A stretch of DNA of 64,000 nucleotides, from the NCBI RefSeq assembly GCF_900609055.1, contig NZ_UXAW01000090.1, positions 1 to 64,000 on the forward strand, given 5' to 3'. Numbering within the stretch: position 1 is the first letter of the stretch; each line of letters starts with the position of its first letter. The notes beneath the pieces are model-generated. The model made no database searches. It was not told the DNA's origin and saw only the letters and a program-made list of their open reading frames with translations. A program made the translations under genes and the position numbers. Shown one piece after another: positions 1 through 8,457 of the stretch. The DNA is from Pseudogemmobacter humi (lineage in GTDB: Bacteria; Pseudomonadota; Alphaproteobacteria; Rhodobacterales; Rhodobacteraceae).

Positions 1-238
1 GCAGGCTCTCCACAAACCCTGTCGTTTGACGTGGCGGCAGCCCGAACAACACCTTGATCGAGAGGCAGAATTGTATGGCCGCCGCAGAAAACCTCTCAGG
101 GTGACCCGCCTGGCCGCCCGGGACCGCGAACCAGGCCATCTCAGGGTCAAACCATACCATCAGCGAGCCACGACGCTTCAAGGCTCGACTGTAGCTCGAC
201 CAGTTCGTCGTGCGGAAAAGAGGGATCGGTTTGCTCAT
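1..238 (-). CDS. IS5-family transposase, N-terminal part
   Basis: This is the N-terminal 79 codons of a transposase that continues beyond the window. Translation of the minus strand from ATG at 238 gives MSKPIPLFRTTNWSSYSRAL, followed by KRRGSLMVWFDPEMAW and, further on, LPPRQTTGFVES. These are the hallmark N-terminal stretches of IS5/IS903-group DDE transposases. The catalytic DDE residues lie in the unseen part. The reading frame is intact over the visible length, so the element could still be active, but this cannot be judged from here. Confidence 0.85.
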   Translation of the reverse strand, partial: MSKPIPLFRTTNWSSYSRALKRRGSLMVWFDPEMAWFAVPGGQAGHPERFSAAAIQFCLSIKVLFGLPPRQTTGFVESL

Positions 239-287
239 GGGGCCAACCTAACCCCCGGACTCACAAACATGAATCCGTAGGTCACAG

Positions 288-305
288 GGATAGCGCAACA
301 AAGCC
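288..305. repeat. Terminal inverted repeat of the IS element
   Basis: The outer 18 bp of the element read GGCTTTGTTGCGCTATCC from 305 inward on the minus strand. This matches the general form of IS903-group ends. The flank from 306 (ggttatcgg) would be one copy of a 9-bp target duplication if the insertion was simple. Confidence 0.7.
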
Positions 306-509
306 GGTTATCGGCTAAGAAAGGCGAGAGCAGCAGCATTGGCCATTTCTGGGGCAACTGCCTCACAAATCGGTGCCTGGACTGGGCATGCGAGCCTCTC
401 AGAGATCGCCCATTACACCAAACAGGCAGACCAGAAAGGGATTCTGGGGGCGAATAAAGAACGCGAGATGGGAAACCGTGTTAAAAAGTTTCCAAAATCT
501 CCGGAATAA
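306..509 (+). pseudogene. Tyrosine recombinase (integrase), C-terminal remnant
   Basis: The plus strand has an open frame from 306 to a TAA at 507-509 encoding GYRLRKARAAALAISGATAS, then QIGAWTGHASLSEIAHYTKQAD and a short tail. This is the end of a phage/island-type tyrosine recombinase catalytic domain. It holds the box-II arginine (in YRLRK, where most relatives have HGLRK), the TGH motif and the tyrosine nucleophile (codon 414-416, in HYTKQ). Everything upstream is replaced by the insertion sequence, so the gene is broken. Its 3' end lies 30 bp from the 3' end of the tRNA-Arg gene, the usual position of an integrase at a tRNA attachment site. It is probably a relic of an integrated element. 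Confidence 0.8.
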
Positions 510-539
510 TATCCTAAAATTAGCATGTTAGGAGAGTAT

Positions 540-616
540 TGGCGCACCCGACAGGATTCGAACCTGTGACCTCTGCCTTCGGAGGGCAGCACTCTATCCA
601 GCTGAGCTACGGGTGC
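540..616 (-). tRNA. tRNA-Arg (anticodon CCG)
   Basis: The minus strand folds into a 77-nt cloverleaf. The acceptor arm GCACCCG pairs with CGGGTGC, followed by G and an encoded CCA. The D arm is GCTCAGCTGGATAGAGT, the anticodon loop is CTCCGAA (anticodon CCG), and the T arm contains GGTTCGAATCC. CCG decodes CGG arginine codons. The gene is downstream of sufS in the same direction. Its 3' end faces the integrase remnant, as expected if it served as an attB site. Confidence 0.96.
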
Positions 617-7410: not shown

Positions 7411-8457
7411 TCATGCGGCCCGCGCGCGAGCCTTCGCATATCCTTTGGTCCACGCCTCCGCGAACCGCAGGACATCTTCTTCGCTCACGCCCGGACCGAT
7501 CGAGATCCTGACCATCTGCCCGGCCTCGTCGGCGCCGAAACCCATGGCGCCCAGCACTTTCGAGGTCCGGACCTTGCCGCTGGAACAGGCCGATCCCGCG
7601 GAAACCGCGAAGCCCGCCAGATCCATCGCCATGACCTGGGTTTCCCCGCGCCAGCCCGGAGCGATCACGCAAAGCGTATTGGGCAGCCGTTCGGCACCCT
7701 TCCCTACCGAGATAATCCCGTTCGATCCGGCAAACAATGCTGATTCTAGAATATTTCTAATCCGTGCGACATCTTCCCACAGCCCGTCGGCCAGATCCCG
7801 CGCCGCGGCCTCAGATGCCGCCGCCATTCCCGCAATGGCGATCAGGTTTTCGGTCCCTGCCCGGCGCCCCATCTCCTGGCCGCCGCCGCGCAGCTGCGCC
7901 GGCAGATCCAGTCCCTGGCGCAGGAAAACCGCCCCCACTCCGCGCGGCCCGCCGAATTTATGCGCGCTGGCGATGCCGAACTGCACGCCCAGCCAGTTGA
8001 ACGCCAGAGGCAGCTTGCCGAGGCCTTGCGTCAGATCGCTGACCGCCAGCCCCTCGGGCAGGTGCTGCACCACGCCGGTCTCGGAATTGGCGATCTGAAG
8101 CGCGCTCCGCCCCGGATCCGCCACCGTCACCCGGCCTGCTGCATCCACCGGCAAAACCGGATCGCACCAGGCCAGCACGGCCTCGTGCTCGACCGGCGCG
8201 CAGACGAGGCCCCGCCCCGCGCAGACCAGCGCCGCCGCCTCGGTCGCGCCCGAGGTGAAGACGATATCCGCCCCCTCGGCCCCGAAAGCCGCCGCGATCT
8301 GCGCCCGCGATTTCTCCAGCAGCGCCTTCGCCGCCCGCCCCTCGGCATGGACCGAGGACGGATTGCCCACCACATCCATCGCCGCAATCATCGCGGCGCG
8401 GGCCTTGGGCCGCAAAGGCGCGGTGGCATTCCAGTCGAGATAAAGCCGATCAGCCAT
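7411..8457 (-). CDS. Cysteine desulfurase, IscS/NifS type (class I)
   Basis: This second desulfurase of the operon would supply persulfide sulfur from cysteine. The 348-residue protein is short for IscS but carries the PLP residues. H91 is in APVEHEAV, Q144 in SDLTQGLGK and the PLP lysine K167 in IASAHKFGG. The mobile-loop cysteine C291 is in [10 protein letters not shown], the class I context. Internal gaps relative to IscS explain the length. Its ATG lies inside a dispersed repeat that also provides an upstream GAGGA. The 99-bp gap to iscR holds two hairpins. In this lineage an iscS-like gene next to iscR but without iscU is usual. Confidence 0.88.

Follow-up and report, generated by a model that had tools for sequence, protein, structure and literature searches.

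Introduction

In Paracoccus aminophilus, the prophage vB_PamS_Pami3, an element of siphovirus type with a size of 35 kb, is given in a survey table as residing at tRNA-Arg(CCG) (PMC6536676). As far as the table goes, it resembles the locus described here in its tyrosine-type integration at this tRNA gene; our locus differs in keeping the integrase tail and the tRNA side only, and the likeness concerns the attachment site (PMC6536676). The nearest annotated phage relative of an intact homologue of our integrase (L031, genome G011) is the integrase of Rhodobacter phage RcapNL, a distant one that was compared by protein sequence only (42.6 % identity over 95 % of L031). The described counterpart of the insertion sequence (IS) at our locus is ISPam1 of P. 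aminophilus, which has the inverted repeat in common with it and is 87 % identical in DNA sequence over 303 bp, whereas our copy is cut by a contig end and is found without a duplicated target.

Two published cases are close to the arrangement as a whole. In E. coli C an IS5 copy, placed in the IS903 sub-group by the authors, was found in a 62-kb deletion without a duplication, and, at a large duplication in a laboratory strain of Pseudomonas fluorescens, a copy of IS481 had brought along four adjacent bases which had earlier been taken for its duplication (PMC11708052). The IS5 case, as described there, resembles our locus in having the IS at a deletion end without a duplication, the IS481 case in flank bases that moved together with the IS; both stem from laboratory evolution, whereas here 9–10 bases and comparative evidence are concerned (PMC11708052). 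Our locus is quite probably a decayed prophage end at tRNA-Arg(CCG), capped by an IS that brought a donor flank with it. Within this reading, the carry-over of the flank from a copy near guaA would be the less certain part.

Organisation of the contig end

The DNA analysed, called the window in the following, comprises bases 1–64,000 of contig C117 in the draft genome of Pseudogemmobacter humi (143 contigs). Base 1 is the contig end, and nothing to the left of it is readable. Bases 1–305 (minus strand) represent the left, transposase-start end of an IS5-family element with its terminal inverted repeat at about 291–305. The first 79 codons of the transposase at 2–238 (minus strand), which run off the contig, match PF13737 (DDE_Tnp_1_5, E 3.3e-19); together with the likeness to ISPam1 this places the element in the IS903 group. 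Full-length elements of this group have about 1050 bp and two ends; here the contig begins inside the element. To the right follow nine bases, GGTTATCGG (306–314), and the end of a tyrosine integrase gene of prophage type, namely 64 C-terminal codons and the stop, with the signature LRK...WTGH...HYTKQAD (315–509, plus strand). The attachment gene tRNA-Arg(CCG) occupies 540–616 on the minus strand with its 3' end at 540 (ARAGORN; Rfam RF00005), and comparison with the 17-bp repeats of two relatives suggests that its 3' end at 540–556 served as the att core.

A sequence-only reading of this region had described an open frame at 306–509 as the end of a tyrosine recombinase which stops 30 bp from the 3' end of tRNA-Arg(CCG), its 5' part being replaced exactly at the inverted repeat of an IS5/IS903-type element. 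The open frame with the motifs that we take to be LRK, TGH and Y, the distance of 30 bp to the tRNA and the IS end at 305, with the transposase start on the minus strand, are all confirmed. However, integrase sequence is recognisable from 315 and not from 306, and nine foreign-looking bases lie between it and the IS.

The integrase relic and its relatives

The tail, counted as 68 residues in the earlier reading, does match an integrase profile, but under the curated cut-off: searched alone against PF00589 (Phage_integrase) it reaches E 0.0025 and 18 bits, compared with a gathering score of 27.1. This may be expected because the query has only 67 residues, for which no PHROG match was obtained either. 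Its identity is settled by its relatives. A protein search in 13 genomes of the genus, its own included, revealed full-length frames of 363 aa (G011), 361 aa (G004) and 364 aa (G003), to which the tail is 92, 83 and 80 % identical, respectively. An identity of 92 % over 63 residues to the end of the 363-aa frame excludes a chance resemblance, and this homologue (L031) scores above the cut-off of PF00589 (E 1.1e-11, 45.2 bits) and matches PHROG integrase families with E 1.1e-27. Judged by this kinship, bases 315–509 are a genuine tyrosine integrase relic.

Furthermore, a scan of GTDB genomes yielded seven loci, 43–79 % identical to the query, in Pseudogemmobacter, Paracoccus and other Rhodobacterales. 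Six of them carry tRNA-Arg(CCG) beside the integrase in the arrangement of the window, 9–39 bp past the stop codon, and the remaining one has the 3' part of this tRNA only. One of the six (L085) contains an internal stop in the integrase and a frame of 137 aa, yet a single tblastn piece spans residues 10–354. An integrase scrap with a frameshift and a length of about 70 residues is also found at the same tRNA on pPAN3 of P. pantotrophus (L030, 7968–8184; tRNA-Arg at 8226–8302). The weaker matches L019, L021, L023 and L025–L029 were left out of the homologue comparison, and L080 and L082, which are the loci L032 and L033, were counted once. With the full integrase as query, the own genome gave the tail and three further matches of 25–34 % identity, which are taken as putative paralogues; the 5' half of the integrase was not found in this assembly.

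The C-terminal catalytic boxes of tyrosine recombinases are H-x-x-R, H and Y. In the window tail the arginine, the second histidine and the tyrosine are present; the first histidine is replaced, and this position falls inside the nine bases that are unlike all ten aligned homologues. The 64 codons after the nine bases differ from L031 in 6 of 64 residues, with a dN of 0.068 and a dS of 1.50, and look selected. Because the earlier catalytic boxes are absent, the relic is presumably inactive.

Attachment site and parent element

A direct repeat of the tRNA 3' end at the far side of the integrase was found in two of the three relatives tested. The copy of P. onubensis (G014) has 17 bp, is directly oriented and is placed at a distance of 39.9 kb from the tRNA on the side of the integrase (E 1.8e-4); that of P. 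hibiscisoli (G015), also of 17 bp, is found at 45.1 kb (E 2.6e-4). The third relative, G011, has no exact repeat of more than 11 bp within 59.8 kb; two longer inexact repeats (18 and 14 bp) do not cover the tRNA 3' end. The attR/attL repeat that had been anticipated is thus present in two relatives, but in the own assembly no second copy of the core with 0–1 mismatches exists besides the tRNA itself, and with two mismatches there are five sites as against four for a control pattern.

The interval between the repeats of P. onubensis contains genes for a portal protein (PF04860, E 2.3e-91), a terminase and a primase of D5 type (a match was obtained for 6 of 10 scanned ORFs), and that of P. hibiscisoli a lambda-family portal gene (PF05136, E 1.4e-92; 3 of 6 scanned ORFs with a match, one of them below the curated cut-off). 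Since the 17-bp copies enclose portal genes in two Paracoccus genomes, the parent element of the relic was most likely a prophage; this term is drawn from the relatives because the own prophage is not visible at all. The kinship of the tail and the repeats in two of three relatives bear out the earlier proposal of a former integration site at tRNA-Arg(CCG) that was cut by an IS903-type element, and the integrated element would likewise have lain on the left side of the tRNA, where the contig ends.

On this left side, nine genomes of the genus were read. The integrase described here occurs in two of them (G011 and G004), and other recombinase-like frames of tyrosine/serine type were seen by eye in G003 and G012 (L149, 84–1004; L150, 1–1500); within the 0.7–1.5 kb inspected by eye in G002, G005, G006, G007 and G009 a recombinase was not apparent. 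None of the nine genomes revealed the former left neighbour of tRNA-Arg(CCG). With the other recombinases of G003 and G012, this side of the tRNA has the appearance of a shared integration hotspot. To the left of the intact integrase of G011 an nSTAND3 gene and a DUF3223/AAA gene are located (L205, 10447–14497, minus strand), presumably cargo of a kind often found in defence loci.

The bases between the IS and the integrase

At the three codons that adjoin the IS, all ten homologues aligned have Ala-His-Gly and the window has Gly-Tyr-Arg, so that all three codons at 306–314 differ. L035, which stands outside the ten as it was not picked by the script, reads AHGLRK in its frame, and the decayed scrap of P. 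pantotrophus has Ala-Pro-Gly at box II. As all ten homologues carry Ala-His-Gly and the remaining tail has the look of a sequence under selection, the nine bases, and with them the tyrosine at box II, probably do not derive from the integrase. The tyrosine in YRLRK had been regarded as the possible mark of an atypical parental integrase; this was rejected, the nine bases being placed between the IS and the integrase and the homologues agreeing on histidine.

The same IS end is also found in contigs C29, C138 and C53. In C29 it is followed by GGTTATCGGC, ten bases identical to 306–315 of the window, and then by sequence downstream of guaA, a gene recognised by eye in its reading frame. Window positions 217–315 are identical to the terminal 99 bases of C29, and the next base differs (T versus G), while C138 shares positions 207–305. 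At the guaA site, G009 as one of twelve relatives reads GTCGATAACA without an IS; in three (G011, G012 and G002) the bases are similar in part, and in the remaining eight they are different. The bases flanking the IS may therefore be native at guaA; given the similar bases of G009 at a site without an IS, the direction would be from guaA to the integrase. Behind the donor-flank step stands a single match of 10 bases, which involves the ends of two contigs in a draft assembly. On C29 (L009), upstream of guaA and beside tRNA-Val(TAC) at 7532–7607, a frame on the plus strand from 7696 has an integrase-like start, as judged by eye, and runs into other sequence; it is perhaps a second integrase scrap.

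A 9-bp target duplication around the window copy was not found. An IS end directly followed by CCGATAACC, the expected partner duplication, does not occur in exact form in the own assembly, and the single match with one mismatch (C18) is not an IS end. Five right-hand ends that were read (C85, C131, C140, C15 and C136) carry other flanks, and there is no duplication pair among the four left and five right ends read; the IS fragments C7, C84, C94, C123, C16, C126 and C109 were left out of this flank reading. That the assembly contains the partner IS end, followed by the complement of ggttatcgg, was thus rejected. With neither a partner duplication nor a duplication pair among the ends read, the junction does not represent a simple insertion of which both sides are visible; a simple insertion with ggttatcgg as the duplicated target, as proposed before, is also at variance with the lack of an integrase 5' half and with the presence of ggttatcgg as the flank of the guaA copy. 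The right-hand ends of C140 and C136 (L046, L050) have six outward bases in common (GCGCCG) and then diverge.

Flank sharing among IS ends

The comparison of flanks comprised 73 IS ends of eight sources, with four of the 24 listed ends in G004, one of the 22 in G009 and all ends of G003 and G005 (four) left out; one of the 73 is a probable chance match in G000 (L046, position 210) which enters the control pairs only. At least eight flank bases are shared by 3 of 133 pairs of the same end in the same genome and by none of 2495 control pairs, of which three reach the maximum of six bases. As control pairs never exceed six bases, chance is a very improbable source of a 10-base match. Of the three high-sharing pairs, two represent both ends of one site pair in G009, leaving two independent cases.

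In this G009 case (L162, L160, L164, L172) the left target copy is TATCCAGGT, and the right copy, GATCCAGGT, equals the duplicated target of another IS copy; the two targets are alike by themselves at 8 of 9 bases. The IS seems to be located in a phage terminase-like gene which was joined by eye (right fragment PF20441, E 0.0079, below the cut-off; left fragment without a Pfam match). That a copy of a duplicated target reads as the flank of another IS copy may be a weaker second case of carry-over; it may also reflect target preference plus one point change. Among the 20 ends read in G004 no flank sharing beyond five bases was seen, which argues against a general rule.

Ordinary 9-bp duplications occur in the same set, with three pairs in G004 and one pair each in G009 and on pAMI4 of P. 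aminophilus. In G011, both ends were read at four places (L131, L138, L209 and L211; the ends of L209 are about 2 kb apart) without a target duplication being found; the same applies to the ISPam1 copy on pAMI8 and to the copy of P. versutus, and these cases also speak against a general rule. Of the two ISPam1 copies read, L037 has a 9-bp duplication and L230 has none.

Origin of the junction

Three things are observed: an integrase tail, full integrases related to it at the same tRNA, and the end of an IS903-group element in the place of the missing gene part. The plain reading of these is prophage loss with an IS at the deletion end. A phage integrase would have joined attP to the terminal ~17 bp of tRNA-Arg(CCG) by recombination, keeping the tRNA whole; later the remaining prophage would have disappeared together with attR and roughly 290 codons from the start of the integrase, and an IS copy would have closed the deletion end. 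Less certainly, this copy may have come from the insertion near guaA and carried 9–10 adjoining bases with it, GGTTATCGGC being the donor flank.

Simple insertion, adjacent deletion, replicative inversion and recombination between IS copies each leave a target at one end of the IS and its complement at the opposite end, so by reasoning none of them gives the same nine bases on two ends of the same side. These single-event schemes were rejected on this ground, as they do not lead to two left ends with identical nine bases and different continuations. Two other schemes would do so. In one of them, donor flank that was not removed from the non-transferred strand (the 5' end of the IS) would fill the nine-base target gap and replace the duplication; exactly nine bases are predicted, and the tenth base, C, would match by chance. 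In the other, break-repair synthesis would copy the IS on the guaA side together with its flank and, from a short match (GGC) onwards, continue with the integrase as template; here any length is predicted. More generally, it is a tentative and rather doubtful proposition that an IS903-group element can carry the nine flank bases of its old site to a new one, in place of a target duplication, where it closes a large deletion.

A simpler account would be an IS insertion or an IS-adjacent deletion in an integrase, atypical or decaying, that natively had GGTTATCGG at box II, the match at guaA being due to chance or target preference. It draws on the 9-bp duplications made by the IS903 group (ISPam1 copy L037; PMC3281130) and on adjacent deletions, for which IS903-type elements are known (PMC11708052), as well as on the two G009 targets alike at 8 of 9 bases and on the relic of P. 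pantotrophus, which at the same tRNA is also without the histidine. However, the ten of ten Ala-His-Gly homologues with a selected-looking remainder oppose a native GGTTATCGG, and the limit of six shared bases among control flanks opposes a chance match, which makes this account quite improbable. The integrase tail might also not truly follow GGTTATCGGC, C117 having been joined to the wrong IS-flank path during assembly. The site indeed lies at a contig end inside a repeat, and the ends of C29 and C138 each share exactly 99 bases with C117. De Bruijn assemblers with k = 99 leave contig ends that overlap by 99 bases. However, the overlaps branch after base 315 (T versus G), as though the two continuations were both part of the assembly graph, and no bubble would be expected to merge the paths of C117 and C29 because their continuations never rejoin; we consider an artefact of this kind unlikely.

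For the parent element, a genomic island or another integrative element has to be weighed against a phage. G011 speaks for an island, since the two ORFs scanned to the left of its integrase are of STAND/AAA type and not phage structural genes, and no att repeat was found there. The portal and terminase genes between the att repeats of P. onubensis, the portal gene of P. hibiscisoli and the nearest annotated relatives among phage records, which are phage integrases, argue against it, and we give an island origin a low probability. The preferred reading remains a decayed prophage end at tRNA-Arg(CCG) with an IS at its deletion end.

Significance

In the relic an ordinary prophage remnant and a common IS meet at an attachment site of a known kind; it adds one case to this phage attachment site and explains away the apparently odd integrase. 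The carry-over of the flank would be a testable oddity, as yet unproven and suggested by comparison of sequences. If it is true, the new joint would be a birthmark that names the donor copy, here the one at guaA, and IS copies would hold a readable record of their origin. Missing target duplications would then gain one more cause beside recombination and adjacent deletion, and the fate of the donor flank in DDE transposition would become directly testable in a common IS group.
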